64,000 bases of DNA. It comes from Xanthocytophaga agilis (GTDB lineage Bacteria; Bacteroidota; Bacteroidia; Cytophagales; 172606-1). The stretch lies in assembly GCF_030068605.1 (NCBI RefSeq), contig NZ_JASJOU010000013.1, positions 124,001-188,000 of the forward strand. Direction: 5' to 3'. Positions 1,390-47,831 of the stretch are shown one piece after another. A program made the position numbers and the translations under genes. The notes under the pieces were generated by a model, which did no database searches, was not told the origin of the DNA, and was given only the letters and a program-made list of their open reading frames with translations. The first letter of the stretch is position 1. Every line of letters starts with the position of its first letter.

Positions 1390-4300
1390 TCAAGTTTGTT
1401 TAACAGGCAAGATAATGACAAACTCAGCACCCTCACCTAACTGACTATGCGCATCAATAAGCCCGTTGTGCTTTTCGATAATTTTTTTGCAAAGCGCCAA
1501 ACCAATGCCTGTACCTTCGTATTCATCTGTACCATGTAGCCTCTGAAACAGTGTAAATATTTTGTCTTTGTAGGCTTCATCAAAGCCTATACCATTATCT
1601 TTGACAATGATGCGTACAAAACCACCCTCTTTCTGTGATGGACTACTGAATCTCTTCTCACTGATCACTGTTGAATGAATAGTAATTGATGGCACTACGT
1701 CTGGTTTTGAAAACTTGAGTGCGTTACTGATCAGATTCTGGAACAATTGCCGGATCAGACCGGGAATTGCTTCAATCATCGGGAAATGGCTAATCGAGAA
1801 GGTGGCGTCTTTCTCACGAATCACAATCTCAAGATCATCCAGAATTTCCGTAATGATAGTATTCAGGTTAAGCATCTCAAAGAAAGACCCGTCTGACACT
1901 TTCGAATAACTAAGCAGATCATTTACCAGCTTGGTCATACGGGAAGCAGACTGTATAATCTTATCTGCAAAGATAGTGGCCCCATCCATTTCCTGAAGAT
2001 ACTTATTCTTCAACAGGTTACCATACAGGTGTATTTTGCGGATAGGCTCTTTCAAGTCATGTGAAGCTACTGATGCAAACTGTTGCAGGTCATTGTTACT
2101 GCTTCTGAGAGCCACATTCAGCTTTTTAAGTTCTATTGTACGTTCCAGCACCTTCTGCTCCATAACTTCCGAAATCCTTTTCTGCTGATCAATATCAGTA
2201 GCACTACCTACCCAGGAATAAATCACACGGTTGGTGATCTGAGCACGTGCCCGTAACAGATGCCACTTATATTCATGGCTGGCATTACGAATTTTAATCT
2301 CAACCTCGAAGTCATGTGTAGACCGCAGAGCTGCCAGCCAGATCTTTTTTAGTTTGAGCAAATCGGCTGGGTCAACAAAACGTTTCCAGCTATAGTCCGC
2401 TGCTTCTGTAGCAGATTCACCTGTAAACAGTTCGAAGTTTTTATTGATAAATGTGATCTTTCCATCCGGACTGGCAGTCCATACGATCAGCGGAACAGAT
2501 TCTGCCAGAAACTGCCGTTGTTCTATGTTCCACTTTACTTCCTGCCTCGCCTTACGAAGTTCGGTAATATCCAACATGGATTTTAGCATCCGGTAGGGTG
2601 TGCCATATTCATCATGCAAAATATACGAACGATCAAGTACTTCTGCATACCCCCCATCAGACTTCTGAAAGCGATATTCCAGTGAGAAGTGACTGGTATT
2701 GGTATTAAGCAATCTATGAATTGTAGATTGTACCCTCTCTTTATCGTCCGGATGGATATTGGCAGACCAGAGTTTGCGTGATTGCTGAGGTTCTGCATTT
2801 TTGTATCCAAACATTGAGAAAAAGCTGTCACTATACCAGATATCATTATCGATCAGTCTCCAGTCAATAATAGCATCGTTAGTGGCTTGAGACAACAACC
2901 GGAACCGCTCCTCACTTTTACTGAGTTCCTGTGTACGTTCCTGTATCTTTTCCTCCAAATTGGAGTTAAGTACCTTCAGATCTTCCTTCGTGCGAATGAG
3001 TTCGTTAAAGTTCTTTCTCAACTTAGCCTCATCCATTCTTTTATCTGTAACATTGGTAAAGGTAGCAGCGATTCCGTTTTTAGTTCTTACCGCTACTCCT
3101 TCAAAAGATTTTTGTTCAAAGGCAATTTCAAAGTGTGATGGAATGCCTTGGGTATATACCTTCCGAAACTCTTTGAAGAGCGTTGTCTTTATGTCTATTG
3201 GGAAAATTGACTCCAGTGAATGGTTGATAATGGCGTTGATAGGCTTTTTCCAGAAAGACTCGGATGCACGATTGGCAGCTACACAGGTAAAATCCCGAAC
3301 CTTATGATCCCCATCCGTCACCGTTTCAAAAGCAAAAATAGAGCTTTGAGAAGATTCAAATACCCCGTTAATGATCTCATTCAGATTCTTGATCAGACTG
3401 ATATCTACAAAAGTAAGTATGATACCGTCAGATTTGTTATTATTGTTGATGTAAGGGTATAACTTCATCAAATACGACTGTCCGGACCTGGTAAAAATCT
3501 CCTTCTCCACTACCATTTTGGTACTGATAACCTCTTGTAACGCATTATCAATATTGGTATTGAGCAAATTAGTAGAGATATCAGTAATAGGTCGGCCAAT
3601 ATCGCTTTCGATTAGGTTTACTAGTTTACCTACGGATGGATTGAATTTACGTATTCGTAAATCCTTGTCGAGAAATATCTGGCCGATATCTGTGCTTCTG
3701 AAATAGTTATTCAGGTCATCATTGAGCTGAATGAGTTCATTGATTTTAAGCTGGTGTTCGGTATTTAGTGTATGTAGTTCTTCATTGAGCGACTGCAGCT
3801 CTTCATTGGAACTTTGCAGTTCTTCATTGGAAGAGATCATCTCTTCGTTGGCACTCTGGAGCTCTTCATTGGTAGTCTCAAGCTCTTCAATAGTAGTTTG
3901 CAGACTCAGCTTGGTTTCGTTGAGCTCTTCATGCAAGCCATTCAGAAAATCCGGATCATTAAGTTCACCTATCTTTACAGGTGTTTCTTCTACAGGCTGA
4001 ACTGTTACAGGAAGTTCTTTCAATAAAATCAATGTATAGCCTGTCTTTAACGAAGAAGCAGGCATAGGTCTGACGAGAACACTTACCTGCTTGATTCCCT
4101 CACTGGATCGATAGGTTACCTTCTCCTCATTAACCTTTTCGTTATTATTCCATGCCTGCCGGATCATCTTGTGAACAGGAATTACCAGACTTTTGGAAAG
4201 CAGTTTTAATAAGTTCAGATTGATCTGCTTATCCGGTAACGAAAGAAATTTTTTATAATCGCCTGCTGTATGTCGTACTTCCAGATTGCTGTCAATATAA

Positions 4301-5910
4301 ATAGCTACATACCCCAGGTCATCACACAAAATCTGCTTGATGTCTTCAGAGAAGTCGCCCGACTGAGTTTTGGCTTGTGAGAAGTCGGGAACTGTTCTCG
4401 GAGTATAGGTTCTGGTTGAAGTTAATGGCTTACTAAACAATTCATGATAAGGCCTATTAACTGTTTCGATACGCCGAAAGATCTTCCATTTGCGATCTAC
4501 ATCTTCCAGGGTTTCCCTGATCATACTCACAGACTCTGTACTACCCAGAAACAAATATCCTCCTGGATTCATAGCAAAATGCAAGGTAGAAAGCACCTTC
4601 TTCTGCAGAGCAGAGTTCATATAAATAAGCATGTTTCTACATGTCACCAGATCATTTTTAATAAAAGGAGGATCAGTGATAATATTATGCTTGGCAAAAA
4701 CAATAAGCTTGCGTATCTCCGGAATAATCTGATAAGTAGCATCCCGTTTGATAAAATAGGAATCCAGATAAGAAGCAGGAATGTCTTTCTCTACTGTATT
4801 TTCATAAATACCGCGTGAAGCATAATCTATGGCATTGGCATCTGTGTCTGTAGCAAAGATCTTAATTGACAGATTTTTTTTCGACTGTGCTATCATATCA
4901 TATAGCAGAATCGCAATGCTATAGGCCTCTTCCCCACTGCTACAGGCAGTAACCCATACTTTTATGGTTTCACCGGCAGACTTGTCGTGGATGATTTTAG
5001 AAATTACCTGTTCCTTCAGTGAATCAAAGGCTTCTTTGTCTCTGAAGAATTTAGTTACACCAATCAGAAAGTCCTTGCACAGAACCTGCGATTCACCTGG
5101 TTGTTTCTTCAGATAAGAGAGATATGCCTTTACATGACGTAATTCCAGTTTCTTTATCCTGCGAGCAATACGCCGAAGAATAGTCGGGTATTTATAATTA
5201 TGGAAATCACACCCTGTATTCTTATAGATCAGCTTCAGAATGTCTTCCAGCACCTTTTCATCCATGGTCTTTTCTGTAAAGACCCCATTGGATGTATCGT
5301 CGATGTAATTGGCGATTTCTTCCGGCATTTGCCAGGGAGCCAGGATCATATCAGCACAGCCTGTGGCAATAGCACTTTTTGGCATTCCATCAAACTTGGC
5401 AGATTCGGGCTCCTGTACTACCACCATTCCACCTGCCCGGCTGATTACCTCAATCCCTTTTGTACCATCTGTACCTGTACCTGACAAAATAACGGCAATA
5501 GACTTATCTCCCTTATCTTTGGCAAGGCTGTGCAGAAAGATGTCTACGGCGGTATTAGGGCCTTTATCTATGTTCTTTTTGTCAGTCAGCTGTAGCCGGC
5601 AGTCTGAGATAGTCATCATCTTTTTGGGTGGAATTACATAGATGCACCCTCTCTCTAACAACACACCATCCTCAGCTTCCTGTACTTTCATATAGGTATG
5701 CTTAGCTACCAGTTCTACAAGAAGACTTTTGTAGTCTGGCGACAGATGTTGAATAATGACAAAGGAGAGATTTGAACTCTCAGTCACATTATCAAAAAAG
5801 TCATGAATGGCCTCCAGCCCTCCTGCTGAAGCACCTATTGCTACAATAAAGTGCTGTCTGTCAATAGGTACTTCCGTTAATTTTGTATCTACAGAATGAT
5901 TCTTTTTCAC
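1390..5910 (-). CDS. CheB-CheR-PAS-histidine kinase fusion protein (1506 aa)
   Basis: This is a cytosolic signalling fusion. A CheB methylesterase domain (about 20-205) keeps the S28, H55, D148 triad (GASAGG, IQHLSP, SGTGTDG) but has no receiver domain in front. A CheR methyltransferase follows (about 220-475), with the SAM-binding motif [11 protein letters not shown] and the CRNMLIYM motif. Next come a PAS region, a Glu-rich coiled coil of repeated NEELQS heptads (about 645-720), several PAS domains, and a C-terminal HisKA with SHDLKEP (His near 1283), N box [10 protein letters not shown] and G boxes DNGIGFD and GTGIGLAL. The predicted start is GTG at 5908-5910, because no ATG lies nearby in frame. 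It follows the phytochrome-like gene by 23 bp on the same strand and very probably shares its mRNA. Both methylation-type activities and autophosphorylation look intact; the targets are unknown, with no MCP gene in the window. Confidence 0.93.
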
Positions 5911-5933
5911 GTTCTTCTCTGTCTGTTAGAGCG

Positions 5934-7460
5934 TTAAACAACGCTTTTACGTAACGTATATTCGAGTAAAATATGCTGAAGCGAATCAGCGACCTGAATT
6001 TCCTGTGTATGCCAGGGCAAAGAAGTATCCTTTACGGTCTGTTGCCATATTTTAAACGAATTGCGTGGGTGATAGTTTTTCTTATCCTGCTCAAATTGTA
6101 TTGCTTCATCCGGATTTCCTCCCCAGTTAATTTTTTGAATCGCTTCTGACCGGAACACAAACAAGTATTCGTCTTTTGCCGGATGAATAGGAATAGCAAT
6201 CATCCCTGCGATGTCCTGAGACAGCTTTTCATTATCATATACAGACGCTATAGAGTCGGTAGAAAAGACCTTGTCTGGTTTATTACCCTGTAACCACATA
6301 ATCAGATTCTTTACTTCGTCCTCATCAGGTGTAACGCCAATGGTTGCCATACCCCGACTATAGGTTAGAGCTGCCCCTTCCGCTTGTAACAGATCCAGTA
6401 CAGTTGTCTCTTTTTGTAGCAATCCTTTGACCAGGCTATCTTCTGCATAGATCTGCTCTGCCAGACGGGCATGAATGGTCTGTAGGTGTGAGTTACGCTG
6501 AAACTCCTCTAATACCTGAAGCCGTGAAAATGTAGAGGATATAAAGCCAGACAAAAGCTCAAAAACAGAACAAAGCTGATACGGAATAAACTTAGCCTGG
6601 CGATGGTGACAGGCAATCAGTCCCCATAATCTGTTGTCTTTTATAATACGGATAGACATAGACGACATCACATTCATATTACGCAGGTACTCTATATGAA
6701 CGGATGCAACACTCCGTAAATTGCAATCAGACAGATCAATAAATGTTTCTGTGGCAGGATTCAGCAGAGGATATAACTTTACGGGAGTGTATTCGCGGTC
6801 AGGTATCTGCCGATAGGGATTTTGCAGATATAAGGCTCTGGCCTGGCGAGGTACATCCGAAGCCGGAAATACCAGACCCAGATAAGGCTCCATGCCTTCT
6901 TCCAGCGTTTCGGCAATGACAGTACCATTCCAATTTTCATCAAATTGATACACCATGATCCGATCAAAACCAGATATCTTCTTTAACTCGGTGATAGCAA
7001 TCTCACAGGCAGATGTAATAGTCTGTGCAGATTCCAGCCATGTAATCACATGTTTGACATCCTGATAGACAGATAAAAATGATGTTGTAGCTGATTCATC
7101 TTCCGGCAGAATTTCTATTTCCAGAATCAGATAGCTATCTTTTATATGAACAATGGCAAGGCAATTGGTTTGGCGACCAGGTACTGTAAAGGAAAATGAT
7201 ACCGATGTTTTTTTGATTACATCAGATTGTATATGCTCCTCAAGCAGAGTTAATTCCTTTGCTGAAACGTATTTTTTCCAGGAACTATTTATAACTTCTT
7301 CAACAGCGATACCAAGTTTTTCTTCAATGTTCTGACTCACCTGAATAATTGTCAGATTGGTCTTCTCCAATACTACCAGGATACCATAAGCCTGGACATG
7401 ATTGATAAAGTTAAGAGGGAGGCTTCCACAAAATTCTGAATCATAATTTTTTTTAGACAT
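5934..7460 (-). CDS. bacteriophytochrome photosensory module without output domain (508 aa)
   Basis: The 508 residues match a complete PAS-GAF-PHY core and stop there. C11 lies in a segment aligning with the biliverdin-attachment region (C-x3-P-x10-Q-A-Y-G). The GAF domain has PASDVPRQAR (about 198-207), VHIEYLRNMNV and LWGLIACHH, the classic chromophore-pocket motifs. The PHY domain has NWGG and the tongue PRNSFKIW (about 464-471). Typical bacteriophytochromes continue into a histidine kinase, but here only about 40 residues follow the tongue. It is the first gene of a two-gene unit with the CheB-CheR-kinase fusion 23 bp downstream, so light or redox input may be passed to that protein. Biliverdin binding is inferred from C11 and the pocket motifs. 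No heme oxygenase gene is in the window. Confidence 0.93.
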   Translation of the reverse strand: MSKKNYDSEFCGSLPLNFINHVQAYGILVVLEKTNLTIIQVSQNIEEKLGIAVEEVINSSWKKYVSAKELTLLEEHIQSDVIKKTSVSFSFTVPGRQTNCLAIVHIKDSYLILEIEILPEDESATTSFLSVYQDVKHVITWLESAQTITSACEIAITELKKISGFDRIMVYQFDENWNGTVIAETLEEGMEPYLGLVFPASDVPRQARALYLQNPYRQIPDREYTPVKLYPLLNPATETFIDLSDCNLRSVASVHIEYLRNMNVMSSMSIRIIKDNRLWGLIACHHRQAKFIPYQLCSVFELLSGFISSTFSRLQVLEEFQRNSHLQTIHARLAEQIYAEDSLVKGLLQKETTVLDLLQAEGAALTYSRGMATIGVTPDEDEVKNLIMWLQGNKPDKVFSTDSIASVYDNEKLSQDIAGMIAIPIHPAKDEYLFVFRSEAIQKINWGGNPDEAIQFEQDKKNYHPRNSFKIWQQTVKDTSLPWHTQEIQVADSLQHILLEYTLRKSVV

Positions 7461-8060
7461 AAGGTATGTAAGTTTGTTTCTGAGGAGCTAAGCCATTTTG
7501 CCCTAATACTCCTCAGTTGATGCGTTTGTATGGAAATAGATACACATTTTCTAAGGGCAAAAAAAATAATGCCTGCTGTTTTTTATCTCAAAGCCTCACA
7601 CGAATCCGAGTCCTATTTGCCAAATCGCACGAAAATCAATTTACGAATGTGTGAAATAAAAGACACCAATGATACATTTTTTTTGCTTTTCTTTTTGATC
7701 CTCGTCTACTTATGTCTGCTGTACTCATACTATGTATAGCTGAATATATCAGTCGTTTAACCAGATTATGGGCTATTTTGTTACAAAATTATCTTTGTTT
7801 TTGGCGAAAATTACTGGTAATATCTTTCACCATAAATCGGAAAGCAGACAAGTTACTAAGCTGTAGACAAATAACGATAGGATTTGTCTGGTAATTTTTA
7901 AAAGACATAAAAATAGTAGGTGATGAATGAGAAAATGTTGAACCTTCTGCCCTTAAAAATGTTATTATGATGTATGGTGGTCACCATCGGCAGTAGCATC
8001 CCTTTATCAGACCGCATTTGTGATGCAATGATCTTTTAAATATCTATTGCTCATGTTTCA
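7461..8060. other. AT-rich intergenic region upstream of the phytochrome operon
   Basis: Short open frames occur here, but their translations are low-complexity and hydrophobic without a motif or a good start context. It must contain the minus-strand promoter of the phytochrome operon; I could not identify a clear TAnnTTTG box. Nothing else stands out until the structured RNA candidate that follows. Confidence 0.35.
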
Positions 8061-8081
8061 CTTAAAAGAAAGGAGGTACAC

Positions 8082-8144
8082 ATGTCTAGTCCCAAGCAAA
8101 TTTTATCAAACACTACCAATCATCTTTTAGGTGTGAGATTTTGA
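8082..8144 (+). CDS. possible 20-residue peptide inside the structured RNA
   Basis: An ATG at 8082 is preceded by AAGGAGG (8070-8075 region) with about 5-6 nt spacing, an unusually good Shine-Dalgarno site for a Bacteroidota genome. The ORF encodes a peptide starting MSSPKQ and ending LLGVRF before TGA at 8142-8144. Its codons cover the 5' arm of the long helix (8098-8113), so ribosomes on this ORF would open the RNA fold. It could be a regulatory leader-type peptide, a small functional peptide or chance. I do not recognise the family. Confidence 0.35.
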   Translation: MSSPKQILSNTTNHLLGVRF

Positions 8145-8237
8145 TCGCTTTGCTTTTGTAAAGTGACTCGGGCGGAAATGGTTGGACCGTGCTGGTTGCG
8201 TGCCGGCGGTGTTTGATAAGATTTAACCGAGGATTTT

Positions 8238-8285
8238 GAAACGCATCTGACACCTTATACTGGGTTGGATGCGTTTCGCTTTTTA
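8238..8285 (+). terminator. intrinsic terminator of the structured RNA
   Basis: A perfect 10-bp stem, GAAACGCATC paired with GATGCGTTTC, with a 20-nt loop, is followed by a short T tract (GCTTTTTAT). It lies on the plus strand, about 90 bp before the convergent lactonase gene ends. Confidence 0.7.
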
Positions 8286-8374
8286 TGGGGATTTATAGAG
8301 AAAAAACTATGATAGGTTCTATTTTAACCAGATCAAAGAATAAGATGACTTTCTCTTCTGAAGCGGTGAAAACC

Positions 8375-9346
8375 TCATTGTACTCCCTTTACCTGCATTT
8401 TCAATGTATAAACAGATTCCGAAGCGGTAATAAATAACAAGTTCTTTTCTTTCCCCCCAAAGCATACATTAGCAGTCCATTTGGCCTGAATAGGTATATG
8501 TTCGATCTTTTGTCCTTCTTTGCTATATACAGTTACTCCATTCCCTGTCAGATAGATATTGCCCTGATTATCAATAGTCATTCCATCTGATCCCTGATTT
8601 ACAAACAACTGGCGGTTTTTGAGTACTCCATTGCCTGCAATCTCATATTTATAAGTCTTGTTGTTACCAATATCAGCAACATATAATATTTTACCATCCG
8701 GAGTACCGATCAAGCCATTGGGTTGCTTGAAGGTATCATCCAACAGGATAGCTGCTGATGCACCTTTTGGTAAGTAATATAATTTCTCTCCTCCCAAGTT
8801 TGGATCAGGGCTCTGACGTTTCCAGTATGGGCGCTGATAGTACGGATCGGTGAAGTAGATGCCACCCGATTTGTCTACCCATACATCATTGGGACCATTG
8901 AATGTATGTCCCTGAAAATCTTTGAGCAGAACAGTAACCTTACCTTGTGGACTGATAGACCAGAGCTGGTTGTTTTCATCTGCACAGCTAATGAGATTTC
9001 CTTTTTGATCAAAGTACATCCCATTGGAACGACCTGAATTTTCCATGAACACAGAAAGCTTTCCTTCAGTATCATACTTCCAGATTTTGTTATTGGGCTG
9101 ATCAGTAAAGTATACATTTCCTTTTTTATCTACTGCGGGTCCTTCTGTAAAGCTAAACTGGCTGGATACCAGCTGCGGTTTTGCCTGTGGTGCTATAATG
9201 CCACTGCCTGATGTTGAGTCTGCGATAGTTTGCACGGTTTGTCTGAAGTTAAGGTTAGCTACACTTTCTGATAGAGAGCTTTGAACAAATGGCAAGCCTA
9301 AAGCTATACAGAGAGCAAATAAACTGGTTGTGAACAGGTTTGTCAT
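8375..9346 (-). CDS. SMP-30/gluconolactonase-family secreted protein (323 aa)
   Basis: The protein has an N-terminal signal peptide (hydrophobic stretch LFALCIALGLPFV) and a six-bladed propeller of the SMP-30/gluconolactonase family. Family signatures are visible: FTEGPAVDKKGNVYFTD (the metal-binding Glu), NGPNDVWVDKSGGIYFTDP (Asn) and YVADIGNN (Asp). Such enzymes hydrolyse sugar lactones with a divalent cation; here it would act in the periplasm. I chose the ATG at 9346, which sits directly before the signal peptide; the frame could also open at a TTG at 9364. It stands alone, converging on the structured RNA. Confidence 0.88.
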   Translation of the reverse strand: MTNLFTTSLFALCIALGLPFVQSSLSESVANLNFRQTVQTIADSTSGSGIIAPQAKPQLVSSQFSFTEGPAVDKKGNVYFTDQPNNKIWKYDTEGKLSVFMENSGRSNGMYFDQKGNLISCADENNQLWSISPQGKVTVLLKDFQGHTFNGPNDVWVDKSGGIYFTDPYYQRPYWKRQSPDPNLGGEKLYYLPKGASAAILLDDTFKQPNGLIGTPDGKILYVADIGNNKTYKYEIAGNGVLKNRQLFVNQGSDGMTIDNQGNIYLTGNGVTVYSKEGQKIEHIPIQAKWTANVCFGGKEKNLLFITASESVYTLKMQVKGVQ

Positions 9347-9642
9347 GGATAAACGAAGTTGCAAGGTAAATGGATCGTAAGTTACATTTTTTCAAGACAG
9401 ATAGGATTTTTTTACGTGGAAATATGAAATACAAATGTCCTTAAGTATAACAGAACAATAGATATGCTTTGCCACCATCAAACAACTAAGTAACAGCTTC
9501 CTGGAATATTTCAATGAACTAGATGCAGATGCTGTTTTATATTTCTTTATAAGAAAGTAAAGTGATAGAAGAAGACAAAATCTGAAATATATTCTTATCT
9601 CTCAGTATCTTGCTTCCCTCCTAACCACCTTTACCTAGTATA

Positions 9643-10101
9643 ATGATCTCACTAAAACGAACAACGGTTACTGATCCGGCCTTTGTGGAATTGGTCAGCA
9701 TGCTCGACAAAGACTTGTGGGCACGTTACCCTGATAAACAAGGTATTTTTGCCCCTAGCAACAAACTGGATGAACGAGTACAGGTAGTAGTAGCATTTTC
9801 AGAAGGACAGCCTTTAGCCTGTGGAGGCTTCCGTCCTACGGCTTCTACTACTGAGATAGAGATTAAGCGGATGTTTGTTCATCCGGCCTTTAGAGGAAAA
9901 GGTATCAGCCGAATGATTTTGCAGGAACTGGAACGTTGGGCATCAGAACAACACTATACTTCTGCCATACTGGAAACTGGTATCAAACAACCCGAAGCCA
10001 TCCGATTATATGAGACTTCTGGCTTTACCCGCATTCCTAATTATGGTCCGTATCAGGATATAGAGGAAAGTGTATGTATGCGCAAGATATTTGCAAGCTG
10101 A
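9643..10101 (+). CDS. GNAT-family N-acetyltransferase (152 aa)
   Basis: A single GNAT domain fills the protein. The acetyl-CoA binding motif is visible as KRMFVHPAFRGKGISRMIL (about 78-97), followed by the usual C-terminal segment with ETGIKQPEAIRLYETSGF. Length is standard. GNAT enzymes transfer an acetyl group from acetyl-CoA to an amine; the substrate cannot be told from sequence. It is a single-gene unit that converges with the TonB-domain gene across a hairpin at 10143-10179. Confidence 0.9.
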   Translation: MISLKRTTVTDPAFVELVSMLDKDLWARYPDKQGIFAPSNKLDERVQVVVAFSEGQPLACGGFRPTASTTEIEIKRMFVHPAFRGKGISRMILQELERWASEQHYTSAILETGIKQPEAIRLYETSGFTRIPNYGPYQDIEESVCMRKIFAS

Positions 10102-10142
10102 TATAGATACAAAAGACCTGACAGGATCTCTTTACTATAAAA

Positions 10143-42677: not shown

Positions 42678-45600
42678 TTATCTAAGAATATAAAGTTTTC
42701 CATAATCTTTCTTAAACGCTTTATCTGCGCTGGTTGCACGATGTTCAATAGCTTGTCCATCCATTCGTGTGACTACCCGATAAATATAGACACCATTAGC
42801 CAGCTTATCTCCAAATTCATCTGAACCATCCCACACATACGAACTAATATTGTTACCAATATGGATAGGGCCTAGTTCATCTTGCGTAATTTCCCGAACC
42901 ACCTTACCAGAAACAGTCATAATCTGAATTTTTATCTGATCAGGTAGAGATGCTCCAGTTAATGTAAATACAAATCGGGTTCCGGAAGAAAAAGGATTAG
43001 GATAAGGATAGAAGTGAGTAATGGTTGATTCATTTACTACCTCAAAGCTAATCTGAAACGGTTCGCTTCCGGCTTGATTACCAGATAGATCAGAAGCAAA
43101 CACTTTTAGAGTATAAACACCATCTGAAAGTTTTTCCGGAGTCCATTCCATTCTGAAATCATTATCTCCATTGCCTGCTGCCCAGCTAAAGGCACCCCCT
43201 GAGATACGTTCAAAGTTACTGCTGCCCGGTTTCTTGATATAGATCAGGATACCTGATGTATCTGTACGAATCTGTTTGGTATTCTCATCTTTTAATCGCA
43301 TGATTATCTGGGGAGTAGGAGAAACAATATCTCCATTGAGAATCTTCTGACCATCAAATGTTACTTCCAGAATCGGATTAAGATTATCTGTATTTACAAC
43401 AAATGGAATACTCAATACATTGTTAGCATAATTTTGCTCCGGAAGTATGCGAGGATTTATAAAAACCTGTAATTCGTTATTTCCGCTTAGTGTATCAGTC
43501 CGTACAGGAATCTTAAAGGATATTGTATCTCCATTGGCAGCTAATGGCCTTGCCTTAAAAGTAACTCGTGTGGTCTTTTTACTTTTTGCATTCAGAATTG
43601 TATACTGCACTGTCAATGAATCCGTAAAGGCTCTTGGTGAAATATTCTGAAAAACAACAGGAATCTCAAATGAACCACCAGCCATTTGCTCTGGTATCGT
43701 ATACGCATCGGAAGCTACCATGCCTGTATTAATTAAACCTTCTGGTACTCCATCATAAATCACTTGCCACTTTTTCAGCTGAGGAGGAGTCAGATTTGTT
43801 TCATCTCTTGCCTGTAGTCGTAGCTTCAGGTATGGGTATTGCTGAGAATTGATAAAATCAATAGGCAACGGGCTTGTTTTCACATCTGTAGAAACTACCG
43901 TTTCTGCACCCTGAAGATTCACTCCCACAATATCGAGTTGCCACTGATCTGTAAGAGGTAGTTCAGATGCCTGAATAGCATGATACATTGTTCCCCACAA
44001 AGAAGCAGGGCCTATCAGAGAAGAAGTGATAAATCCATTATCTACACGCCCCTGTAATGTATAATCTAATGACAGTGCCTGCTGTGAACCGGCTATACTT
44101 CCACTATAATCAGGATAGATTTCTGTTGCCAAACCAGCGGTTGCCCCTTTTTGTCCTATAATAATATAAGGGTCACCACTTTTCAGATTAGCAATTTTTG
44201 AGACATCGGCCCCAATACTTACCAGGAGTTGTTTGGTAGCAGCTGACCAGTTAGTAAAATCTACAGAACCAGCTGTAAATAACAAAATATAATCATTGTT
44301 GCTTACCCTGTTTACAAAATCTGCCAGACCGCCTCCTGCAATATAGCCATTGGTAAGGTAGTGTGCGGCAAAAGGTTCCCGTCCACAATTCAAAGAAGCT
44401 ACTACACTGTAGGGTTGTACATTTCCTCTATGAAATGCTACAGCAATCAACGTATTGGGATCTGAGGCAGGACTACATCTGCCACCTGTTACGACTGGGC
44501 CTTCATTCAAAAGCAGCTCTACCTGTTTGTAGGCATCTGTCTGATTCTGGTAGCCATACGTTTTAACAGATATATCCATTGTATTTCCTGTAAACTCCCA
44601 TTTTAATGTTTCTGTGTTGCGTTTTACAGAAGATAAACCAGCTTTGGAAAATTGAGGAAACTTGGTTTGTGACCATCCTTCGGGACTGTTATTAATATAA
44701 ATAAAGGAGCTTTCCATCCAGCTGTTATCATTTCCGATTGGTCGGTCAGCCAGACTGATACGCCAGTAATAGACTGTGCTGTCATGAGAAGTTGCCTTAC
44801 TAAGGAGATCTGTTTCCCAATTCACCAATAGACTCCCTGATACAGTAGTTTCTATTTTGGCTGCACTGGAAAATGTAGCAGAAGTATCCAGCTCTATCTT
44901 ATAAGACCGGGTTTCCAGTGGTGATACAGTTGATTGAGCTACAAACTTTACAGGTTGAGAACTGACAATGCTATATTCTCTTGGAAACAAAGGAATTGCT
45001 CCAACTATTGGAATATCTATTTCCTTCGATGCCTGGTTATTTTGTTCATTGCTTTCGTCAATCTGATTGGCAGGATCTACCAATACTGTAAATGTTTGTG
45101 TACCTCCTACATATTTCTGTGTGTTGGCAATCGTAACATACACTGTATCAGTAAAACTGATTGGATTAAAATATGTTGTATCAGATTGCTGAAATGTGCC
45201 ATCTCCAAACCGGCGAGTTACAGTTACACCAAATTTCTTATTCAGTGTTTTACCATAATTAGTTACTACTACCCCTATCCGGAACGAATCCAATGCAGCA
45301 GTTAGTTGTGATCCATCGAAAGACTGAGCAAAAATCCCGGTTTCTGTAATGGCATAATCCGGTTTGCTGAATGGCACCAATACCACAGCAGGATCACCTT
45401 GTAACACCATTTGTTCTGCATGTGTCAGTCCTAATGTCCAGTTAGTCATCAACGTAACATACCGACGAATAGTCTCTTTCTGTACATTGCCAATAGGCTT
45501 TCCTAACATCGTACTATCCGCAAAAGCAGTCTGATAGAATAGCGTAGAGTAGGCATGCAACTCACTGGCATAGCCGGCAGAAGAATGTGCAATCCAGGCA

Positions 45601-47720
45601 ATAGCACCTCGATCTGATCGTCCCATAACCCAATCTTCAGCATACGTATACTGATTGTTGAATACGTCTCCGGATTGACATCCATTTACCAGAACAAGCG
45701 GATATTTTCCCTGATTTTTGTATCCTAACGTTTCATCAGTTGCATAGCCGATTTCTATGTCATTCACCGTTCTACCTGAGTGGCCAAACATAGTTACCAG
45801 ACTTGCTCCTTCATTTAATTGCTGAGATATATTGATCTGCTCAACTTCATCACCTGTTTGTTTGGATAAAGACTGTACCTTACCCCCAAAATACTCACCC
45901 TCAACAATTGATTTATAGCTATCTATATAAGACTTGAAATTACTTACTTCTGCAGCAGTATGGCCTCCCGCCAGATGAATTATGTTTTTACGCCAGCTTT
46001 CATTAGGAGATAAGGCTTCATGTTCTTTTACCTTAACCAGATAATTATACACCTGTTGTGGTTCAATAGCACTGATACGACCTGTAGCCAGACCTGGTAC
46101 CAAAGAAATACCACTCAATGTATCTGAAAAAAGGTAATCGGATCCGGGCCTGCCATCAGAAGGAACATAATCATAGATAGTTTTAGCGACATTTATAAAA
46201 TTGGTTGTTCTGCCTGGAGCATTACGTACCATTTCAGGTGAAATCCCGCGCCCTATGATAAATAAATAACCTGGTTTACTGATATTATACATCCACTTTA
46301 CAAACCGAGCAATTCCCACAGGTGTATATTCGCCATAGCTAAACTGATTATATAGCTGATCTACGTTTGCAATCAGGGTATCATATCCTCCACCTGCTGT
46401 AGATGCCCGATACTCCGCATAAGCCTGTACAGGATCAGCCACCGAGCTAAAAGGTTTTCTCAGTGCAGAATTTGTTACAATCAGATAATTTGGCTTTACA
46501 GAACTAAAATTGCGAAAGGATACCTTTTTAATAGTTCCTGTAATAGAAGATGCATTGGCATTAGCAAATATAACTGTTCCATTAGAAAGTGTAGCAGCTA
46601 ACTTTCCATTGACAGTAGTGGTAATTATACGTCGGGGAGAATCAGTAGAAGTAATATCATACAGTAAGGTACCTATAGCAGGATTAGTAATCTCAAAATA
46701 ATGTTGATTAGCAGATCCTGCTTCTATGGTAAAGGTTTTTTGTATACTTCCAGCCATATCCCAGGTCTGAGGATATACCAGGCGAATCAGTGAAACAGAC
46801 ATGGCATCCGGATTGGCATCTGAAACCCCATTCACACGCATACGTACAGAAAGTGCACCCGTCGATAAATCTGTAGCCTCAATGGTAGTATTTAACCTAC
46901 GGGTGTTGTGATAGCTAAAACTAATTGTACCTAGTGATCGCAACGAACTGGTAGAAGATCCGGCAAAGATTTCTCCCACATGTGAATAGTTATTTCTTCC
47001 TGCTACAACCACTTCCAGTTTAGGTTTATAGGAAGTATTGACAATCGTGCCCAGATTGGGTAAAGTATAGTCAACACTTGTAAATTTACTTATATAGGAC
47101 CCGGTCCACCCTTCTCCATAATCATAAAAGCTATGTTCACCTTCTGCATTACCTATATATTCAGGATATACTTTTCCATAGTCATAGTCACTTTTAAGCA
47201 CCAGAATACTTTCAGCCCAGTGAAATGCTTCAGCAGCCAGATTATTGGTGTTTGATTCGTTTACTGTTACCATTCTCTTTCCTAATCCATTATCTAACCT
47301 CCAGGTAATAAAATAATAAGTAGTATCAGAGTATAAATTATAATATTTATGTGGTTGAGCTTCTGCGGGACGGTACAACTCTGCATCCAGTGTTCCATCA
47401 TTTCCTTTCCCATAAAACTCCACATAATCTGCTTCATCAAAAAATGCATCAGATTCACCTGATACAATAATAGACTGCTCTACTCCTCTGTGAAAAATCT
47501 GGATTCTACGGGGATCAATAGCAGATAAAGGCATACCCGCCTGAGTCAGATCCTGATAACTTAACCGGTAAATACCTGGCTGTGTAACAGGGATCTTATA
47601 ATACTGCTGGGCATAATTAATCCACTCATTTCCATAGGTTTGAGCAAAAGCCTGCATACCTGTCAGAAATAAGATAGCAAGACCAGTCAAAAAAGACCAG
47701 TCCCTTCTTTTTAAAAACAT
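42678..47720 (-). CDS. porU: PorU, type IX secretion system sortase (1680 aa)
   Basis: This is a gingipain-type (C25) cysteine peptidase with the catalytic His in MFGHSGRT (about residue 645) and the catalytic Cys in VNGCQSGD (about 680). In the T9SS, PorU removes the C-terminal sorting domain of cargo and links cargo to surface lipid. The start ATG 47720 precedes a signal peptide (FLTGLAILFLTGMQAFA); an in-frame GTG at 47774 is less likely. Long beta-sandwich regions occupy residues about 800-1580, and the C-terminal region itself is sorting-domain-like (YPYPNPFSSGTRFVF and NGVYIYRVV). The gene follows a PorV/PorQ-family gene by about 110 bp on the same strand. Confidence 0.88.
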   Translation of the reverse strand: MFLKRRDWSFLTGLAILFLTGMQAFAQTYGNEWINYAQQYYKIPVTQPGIYRLSYQDLTQAGMPLSAIDPRRIQIFHRGVEQSIIVSGESDAFFDEADYVEFYGKGNDGTLDAELYRPAEAQPHKYYNLYSDTTYYFITWRLDNGLGKRMVTVNESNTNNLAAEAFHWAESILVLKSDYDYGKVYPEYIGNAEGEHSFYDYGEGWTGSYISKFTSVDYTLPNLGTIVNTSYKPKLEVVVAGRNNYSHVGEIFAGSSTSSLRSLGTISFSYHNTRRLNTTIEATDLSTGALSVRMRVNGVSDANPDAMSVSLIRLVYPQTWDMAGSIQKTFTIEAGSANQHYFEITNPAIGTLLYDITSTDSPRRIITTTVNGKLAATLSNGTVIFANANASSITGTIKKVSFRNFSSVKPNYLIVTNSALRKPFSSVADPVQAYAEYRASTAGGGYDTLIANVDQLYNQFSYGEYTPVGIARFVKWMYNISKPGYLFIIGRGISPEMVRNAPGRTTNFINVAKTIYDYVPSDGRPGSDYLFSDTLSGISLVPGLATGRISAIEPQQVYNYLVKVKEHEALSPNESWRKNIIHLAGGHTAAEVSNFKSYIDSYKSIVEGEYFGGKVQSLSKQTGDEVEQINISQQLNEGASLVTMFGHSGRTVNDIEIGYATDETLGYKNQGKYPLVLVNGCQSGDVFNNQYTYAEDWVMGRSDRGAIAWIAHSSAGYASELHAYSTLFYQTAFADSTMLGKPIGNVQKETIRRYVTLMTNWTLGLTHAEQMVLQGDPAVVLVPFSKPDYAITETGIFAQSFDGSQLTAALDSFRIGVVVTNYGKTLNKKFGVTVTRRFGDGTFQQSDTTYFNPISFTDTVYVTIANTQKYVGGTQTFTVLVDPANQIDESNEQNNQASKEIDIPIVGAIPLFPREYSIVSSQPVKFVAQSTVSPLETRSYKIELDTSATFSSAAKIETTVSGSLLVNWETDLLSKATSHDSTVYYWRISLADRPIGNDNSWMESSFIYINNSPEGWSQTKFPQFSKAGLSSVKRNTETLKWEFTGNTMDISVKTYGYQNQTDAYKQVELLLNEGPVVTGGRCSPASDPNTLIAVAFHRGNVQPYSVVASLNCGREPFAAHYLTNGYIAGGGLADFVNRVSNNDYILLFTAGSVDFTNWSAATKQLLVSIGADVSKIANLKSGDPYIIIGQKGATAGLATEIYPDYSGSIAGSQQALSLDYTLQGRVDNGFITSSLIGPASLWGTMYHAIQASELPLTDQWQLDIVGVNLQGAETVVSTDVKTSPLPIDFINSQQYPYLKLRLQARDETNLTPPQLKKWQVIYDGVPEGLINTGMVASDAYTIPEQMAGGSFEIPVVFQNISPRAFTDSLTVQYTILNAKSKKTTRVTFKARPLAANGDTISFKIPVRTDTLSGNNELQVFINPRILPEQNYANNVLSIPFVVNTDNLNPILEVTFDGQKILNGDIVSPTPQIIMRLKDENTKQIRTDTSGILIYIKKPGSSNFERISGGAFSWAAGNGDNDFRMEWTPEKLSDGVYTLKVFASDLSGNQAGSEPFQISFEVVNESTITHFYPYPNPFSSGTRFVFTLTGASLPDQIKIQIMTVSGKVVREITQDELGPIHIGNNISSYVWDGSDEFGDKLANGVYIYRVVTRMDGQAIEHRATSADKAFKKDYGKLYILR

Positions 47721-47831
47721 ATTGGAGAAAAAGAAGTGATGAATACTTTGCAGAAATTTATTAGTAATGATCACGGATCAATGTGGTTTCGTAAATACAA
47801 ATGCTGTATAGAATAATGTTTCAATTAAAGA

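Follow-up and report, generated by a model that had tools for sequence, protein, structure and literature searches.

In a 64,000-nucleotide stretch of the Xanthocytophaga agilis genome (contig NZ_JASJOU010000013.1, positions 124,001–188,000 of the forward strand; hereafter designated the window), we found a gene for a stand-alone phytochrome photosensory core next to a gene for a CheB-CheR-PAS-histidine kinase fusion, and the pair of short phytochrome and fusion recurs in soil bacteria of the Bacteroidota. We assign a probability of about 0.6 to the reading that the two products form a two-protein light-sensing kinase, which would be tuned by the CheR and CheB domains acting on a helix of the fusion itself. 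Gene order gives strong evidence for a partnership of the two proteins, and the proposed tuning is suggested by a run of Glu-Glu heptads that follows CheR in the fusion.

A phytochrome core without output domain adjoins a CheB-CheR-kinase fusion

Both genes lie on the minus strand, the phytochrome being first when read 5' to 3'. The phytochrome gene (5934–7460; ATG start) encodes a PAS-GAF-PHY protein of 508 residues and, after an intergenic gap of 23 bp (5911–5933), is followed by the gene for the fusion of 1506 residues (1390–5910; GTG start), so that the layout described in the initial annotation was confirmed by the open reading frames (ORFs) and Pfam. In the 508-residue protein, Pfam matched PAS_2 (residues 15–117; 7110–7418), GAF (residues 150–307, with PASDVP and His255; 6540–7013), and PHY (residues 327–505, with the PRNSF tongue; 5946–6482), leaving HisKA and HATPase unmatched, and all four of the motifs read earlier (C11, PASDVPRQAR, LWGLIACHH, and PRNSFKIW) were found in the translation. 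Moreover, the PAS-GAF-PHY core of a solved phytochrome (9jry) aligned with the protein through residue 505 (E = 3.5e-111), indicating that the chain stops where the photosensory core stops, as had been noted from the sequence. A same-chain kinase output of the BphP type was not detected by Pfam in the 508-residue protein, which scored 314.3 bits with the NCBIfam BphP equivalog NF041576, below its cut-off of 1040.

In an alignment of 106 core sequences of the clade, Cys11 (7428–7430), the candidate biliverdin-binding cysteine, is kept in all rows together with Asp202 and His255, His285 and His286 occur in 99 and 100 rows, respectively, and the PR/SF tongue is present in 104, the remaining two being gapped. 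Cys11 is presumed here to be the N-terminal chromophore cysteine, Asp202 and His255 to serve the bilin pocket, and the tongue residues likewise to play their customary role. We infer that the short phytochrome would bind a chromophore and switch between red and far-red light. A gene of 98% identity is carried by X. flavus. The source genome (9.77 Mb) contains two further phytochromes, each with its own kinase and neither adjoining CheB-CheR.

The pair is kept throughout a clade of short phytochromes

A profile built from 11 short phytochromes was run over 395 genomes of the phylum, 341 of the window's order, and 400 of the Mucilaginibacter-type order, and gave 3, 27, and 77 clade genes, respectively. 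The survey for the same gene pair proposed in the initial annotation thus yielded 105 distinct genes in 104 genomes, spread over the window's order, the Mucilaginibacter-type order, and one further family of the same class; for most genomes only the best three or four candidates were scored, and further short phytochromes may exist. All 105 adjoin a gene for a CheB-CheR-PAS-kinase on the same strand, with the fusion downstream in 101 and upstream in four, and none of the 105 ORFs carries its own kinase. The neighboring CheB and CheR were recognized within the first fetched stretch for 101 genes and in longer stretches for the four swapped-order cases (L141, L147, L269, and L270). No clade phytochrome without such a neighbor was present in the three genome samples, and separation of the pair in relatives, which the initial annotation had named as the finding that would speak against it, was looked for and did not occur inside the clade. 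A chance neighborhood in a single genome is ruled out by these counts, and the fusion is very probably the output partner of the phytochrome photoreceptor, as had been supposed from the window.

Among the 79 rows with the fusion downstream in an 82-row neighborhood table, the gap between the two genes is 0 bp or less in 21 and 1–50 bp in 51, with start codons set mechanically; this table and the 80-row fusion alignment used below each hold four genes twice (L005/L202, L010/L141, L012/L203, and L009/L206). One of the 105 phytochromes is truncated (G1045, 431 residues), and in one locus (L032) the fusion is split into two genes at the junction of CheR and the helix.

Matches to the profile at E ≤ 1e-160 were all short except one full-length phytochrome (G521/L098; an open frame of 863 residues, outside the 105), and nearly all of the weaker matches listed were full-length, with a few unrelated short ones. 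In a quick tree with some long branches and with support from the Shimodaira–Hasegawa-like approximate likelihood ratio test only, 81 short cores (thinned from 106) formed one side of a branch (support 95), with the full-length L098 placed next to them. A single loss of the phytochrome output domain would be the simplest reading of this tree. Neither CheB nor CheR was found beside 27 full-length phytochromes in flanks of about 0.7–1.5 kb. A general link between short phytochromes and CheB-CheR is ruled out by three short phytochromes outside the clade (L132–L134), all lacking such a neighbor.

Several loci outside the clade deserve separate mention. A second kind of stand-alone phytochrome (503 residues) occurs in two families (L132, 497–4692, and L133, 6160–10269) with a shared gene order comprising two upstream genes (about 300–330 residues) and a gene resembling heme oxygenase; in L133, Pfam matched neither of the two upstream gene products. 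In a relative from the same family (L024, 638–3738), a small stand-alone CheB gene lies immediately upstream of a full-length phytochrome gene, and in L142 a CheB gene lies about 0.9 kb from another full-length phytochrome; both are weak hints and were left uncounted. A single-chain phytochrome-CheB-CheR fusion was not seen among the longest open frames, for which no systematic search was made: L130 (2431 residues) and L131 (1295 residues) proved to be phytochrome kinases without CheB or CheR, and the long frame of G919 contained a separate fusion gene in the same frame (L135). The L130 protein (2815–10110) has about 1700 residues past its kinase without a Pfam match.

The fusion retains intact CheB, CheR, and kinase domains

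The fusion begins with a CheB methylesterase domain without a receiver domain (residues 23–199; 5314–5844), followed by CheR_N and the CheR methyltransferase (residues 221–475; 4486–5250), in which the S-adenosylmethionine motif and the basic helix RRxxRR are conserved. Downstream, Pfam matched PAS_10 (residues 733–837; 3400–3714), PAS_3 (residues 1024–1110; 2581–2841), a PAS domain preceding the kinase (residues 1142–1240; 2191–2487), HisKA (residues 1275–1340, with His1284; 1891–2088), and HATPase_c (residues 1385–1504; 1399–1758). Neither Response_reg, which would be the N-terminal receiver of CheB, nor the MCPsignal domain was among the Pfam matches of this protein.

The initial annotation had called the CheB-CheR pair intact, and the catalytic motifs of CheB and CheR as well as the H-box of the kinase bear this out. 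Thus, the catalytic Ser28, His55, and Asp148 of CheB are identical in all 80 aligned fusion rows, as are, more generally, the active-site residues of CheB and CheR kept in every row. The H-box His1284 is present in 77 rows, the other three being gapped, and the H-box, N, G1, and G2 motifs of a histidine kinase were all recognized. The basic helix of CheR, which we take to function in substrate recognition, aligns with that of Salmonella CheR, and its R246, R247, and R251 are kept in 80 of 80 rows. Foldseek returned good fold matches for CheR (5ftw and 1af7) and CheB and weak ones for PAS-helix-PAS structures, and no solved chain covering CheB and CheR together was found among 11 sequence matches.

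A conserved Glu-Glu heptad helix follows CheR

The most conserved 45-residue segment of the fusion spans residues 679–723, with a conservation of 0.936 versus 0.843 for the best CheB segment over the 80 rows. It contains five heptads of the form NEELQSx (residues 681–715; 3766–3870), whose Glu-Glu pairs, from 682/683 to 710/711 and spaced by seven, are identical in all rows. The mean frequencies of the top residue at heptad positions a to g are 0.995, 1.000, 1.000, 0.963, 0.932, 0.990, and 0.765, so that b, c, and f, which face the solvent, vary no more than the core positions, unlike in a plain coiled coil. The AlphaFold2 model (mean predicted local distance difference test score (pLDDT), 80; predicted template modeling score, 0.42) has one continuous helix (residues ~653–739; 3694–3954) that links PAS_10 to a probable cryptic PAS-like fold (residues ~520–633; 4012–4353), which was missed by Pfam and is suggested by the predicted secondary structure in the interval between CheR and the helix. 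In the helix block, pLDDT is 63 at the start and 71–85 afterwards.

Each fusion row holds two to four strict sites of the form [EQ][EQ]xx[ASTG][ASTG], which we take to be the consensus for methylation sites. At least three consecutive heptads of the form [EQ][EQ]xx[ASTG]xx occur in 77 of 77 CheR-PAS fusions versus 1 of 72 kinase ORFs without CheR, a count that omits 61 CheR ORFs ending at the edge of a stretch before the helix. Among all 730 ORFs without CheR, taken from the fetched stretches rather than from whole genomes, the only case is the split-fusion partner in L032. A search with the helix over seven genomes gave 14 matches below 1e-8, comprising 13 in CheR ORFs and one in the split partner, and the 16 weaker matches with fetched loci lacked CheR; since the CheB matches show that these genomes hold 14 CheB-CheR-PAS systems, no system without the helix exists in them. 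The heptad pattern was reproduced by 3 of 8000 shuffles of the same composition.

The heptads are also present in all CheR-PAS proteins examined from other phyla: six plasmid-borne fusions, four more fusions (one from a second Sinorhizobium meliloti strain), a CheR-PAS protein whose CheB lies in a different frame (L264), and, from a Calothrix genome, three proteins, namely two fusions and one CheR-PAS with a separate CheB. They are absent from two ordinary CheR proteins of the same Calothrix. The Calothrix CheR-PAS (L260, 1495–3345) has a run of nine NEELQS-type heptads and an adjoining small CheB gene. Having Glu-Glu heptads followed by small residues, the helix resembles the methylation sites of chemoreceptors, and we regard it as a candidate methyl-accepting segment, which had been overlooked in the initial annotation.

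Genomic surroundings and chemotaxis genes

The initial annotation had likewise passed over the genes for heme oxygenase and response regulators that adjoin some pairs. A heme oxygenase gene lies within 250 bp of the pair in 23 of 82 table rows, and an ORF consisting only of a REC domain follows on the same strand at a distance of up to 100 bp in 12 of 82. At any position in the genome, heme oxygenase was found in 14 of the first 15 genomes tested, the exception (G003) also lacking the pair. Around the Xanthocytophaga pair, the window's first 20 kb and 16 kb to the other side gave no match to a response regulator or a heme oxygenase, and the single heme oxygenase match of this genome is on another contig. 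Upstream of the phytochrome, about 0.9 kb away on the same strand, the window contains a gene for an SMP-30/gluconolactonase-like protein (8375–9364), and farther along (42678–47774) a gene for a 1698-residue protein with a C25 (gingipain-type) peptidase domain, CARDB, and a FlgD-like Ig domain.

Chemoreceptors (PF00015) were searched for in 80 of the 104 pair genomes, that is, all 28 outside the Mucilaginibacter-type order and the 52 best-scoring of the 76 inside it, and were missing from 51, of which 49 belong to that order. CheW (PF01584) was missing from all 51 and present in four of four chemoreceptor-bearing controls. In the window's order, 26 of 27 pair genomes have chemoreceptors, including Xanthocytophaga with 8 PF00015 and 9 PF01584 matches. 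In the 51 genomes lacking both families, CheB and CheR of the pair cannot serve chemotaxis, and a role in chemotaxis is thereby ruled out for the pair in general. Nor can the earlier premise that CheB/CheR fusions usually sit by chemoreceptor genes hold in these genomes, and nothing was found that ties the pair to motility, so that the suggested link to gliding is unsupported.

Proposed mechanism and alternatives

In the mechanism that we propose, one light receptor would be split over two chains. The short phytochrome, having bound biliverdin, would switch in red and far-red light and may dock, lacking a kinase, on the fusion, altering its kinase activity; both the docking and the direction of the signal are presumed. 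Phosphate would then pass to a single-domain response regulator, putatively the one encoded adjacently in some relatives. In parallel, CheR may methylate, and CheB demethylate, glutamates of the NEELQSx helix in cis, with methylation setting the gain of the kinase and thereby giving chemotaxis-type adaptation without a chemoreceptor. Given the frequent absence of chemoreceptors and the presence of a chemoreceptor-like helix in the chain, the most economical role for CheB and CheR would be methylation in cis or across the two chains of a dimer. We consider the odds that the helix is methylated to be evenly balanced.

The simplest competitor is an ordinary two-component phytochrome split in two, with CheB, CheR, and the heptad helix as a structural or vestigial front end that carries out no methylation. 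It shares the evidence of adjacency in 105 of 105 cases, and Glu-rich signaling helices are common in kinases. A vestige, however, would not be expected to keep the active sites of CheB and CheR identical in 80 of 80 rows, and a structural role accords poorly with heptads that are specific to CheR fusions and invariant at solvent-exposed positions; we therefore hold this account to be unlikely. More improbable still is methylation in trans, by which CheB and CheR of the fusion would act on the phytochrome, on chemoreceptors where present, or on another target. The 8 chemoreceptor matches of Xanthocytophaga itself speak for it, but 51 of 80 pair genomes have neither chemoreceptor nor CheW, and a substrate-like helix adjoins CheR within the same chain. 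The two genes might, finally, be mere neighbors, co-transcribed for a shared physiology while the phytochrome has another signaling route. Over 54 loci, the pairwise distances among the phytochromes track those among the fusions (r = 0.92), which is what co-inheritance alone would give; against this account, which we consider very improbable, the adjacency extends over two orders and a further family, is kept in the four genomes with swapped order, and has no exception in the three samples.

Several observations weigh against the self-tuned light receptor. The loose heptad pattern occurs in only 4 of 11 chemoreceptors (4 of 8 in Xanthocytophaga and 0 of 3 in relatives) and thus marks methyl-accepting sites very imperfectly. 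Conservation of a Glu-rich coiled coil could reflect dimerization or docking on CheB/CheR instead of a substrate role, and the modeled helix, if rigid, might be unable to reach the CheR site in its own chain, a site that a dimer partner could reach. On the phytochrome side, His285 or His286 is replaced, mostly by Asn, in 6–7 of 106 cores, and in one fusion examined (L147) Pfam finds no HisKA, HATPase being present. Fusions also occur without a phytochrome, both as other copies in Xanthocytophaga and in other phyla, which makes the helix idea independent of light. Two Flavobacteriaceae outside the clade (L013 and L014) pair a full-length phytochrome with a CheB-CheR-PAS-kinase, and loss of the phytochrome's own kinase is thus not required for pairing. 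In L013 this pair is followed by two REC proteins and a heme oxygenase (Pfam), and L014 has ORFs of like size at equivalent places and a heme oxygenase in the same stretch.

Relation to known systems

The pair shares with BphP kinases acting through single-domain regulators the PAS-GAF-PHY core, the N-terminal Cys, the DIP-type motif, and the PRxSF tongue, as well as, in some relatives, the proximity of heme oxygenase or of a REC-only regulator; it differs in that the kinase is a separate chain, which also bears CheB and CheR. The order of CheB, CheR, helix, and PAS is common to CheB-CheR-PAS fusions also seen in Pseudomonadota, Deinococcota, and one cyanobacterium, which are annotated as 'chemotaxis protein CheB' or 'CheR family methyltransferase', whereas the present one has a histidine kinase at its end and is strictly tied to a photoreceptor gene. 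With the adaptation of chemoreceptors (methyl-accepting chemotaxis proteins), it has in common the catalytic domains of CheR and CheB and Glu-Glu heptads like those of half of the eight Xanthocytophaga chemoreceptors; unlike there, the fusion has no MCP signaling domain and no CheB receiver, often in a genome without chemoreceptor or CheW. Ppr of Rhodocista (Rhodospirillum) centenum likewise ties a phytochrome-type photosensory module to chemotaxis proteins but is described (PMC5812497 and PMC2993699) as a single chain of photoactive yellow protein, the phytochrome module, and a histidine kinase, with no domains of CheB or CheR. In the open-licence papers searched, we found no account of a phytochrome paired with CheB-CheR, none of CheB-CheR proteins having a methyl-accepting helix, and no functional study of a CheB-CheR-PAS fusion ending in a kinase; a chimeric CheB-CheR protein is mentioned, without a function, in one paper (PMC11974857).

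Biological implications

In textbooks, bacterial memory rests on the methylation of receptors, which is known from chemoreceptor arrays. If our reading is correct, a sensory memory of the chemotaxis type would operate outside chemotaxis, in bacteria without chemoreceptors, and a split phytochrome would represent a natural two-chain light-controlled kinase, with light as a clear assay for adaptation and possible use as an optogenetic part. Should the kinases be self-methylating, the same memory device would work in ordinary two-component signaling in several phyla, and the large set of proteins at present annotated simply as 'chemotaxis protein CheB' would be given a target. Tentatively, CheB-CheR-PAS proteins in general may be self-adapting receptors, one of which would have been captured by a kinase-less phytochrome in the Cytophagales/Sphingobacteriales to become a light receptor with a built-in memory.

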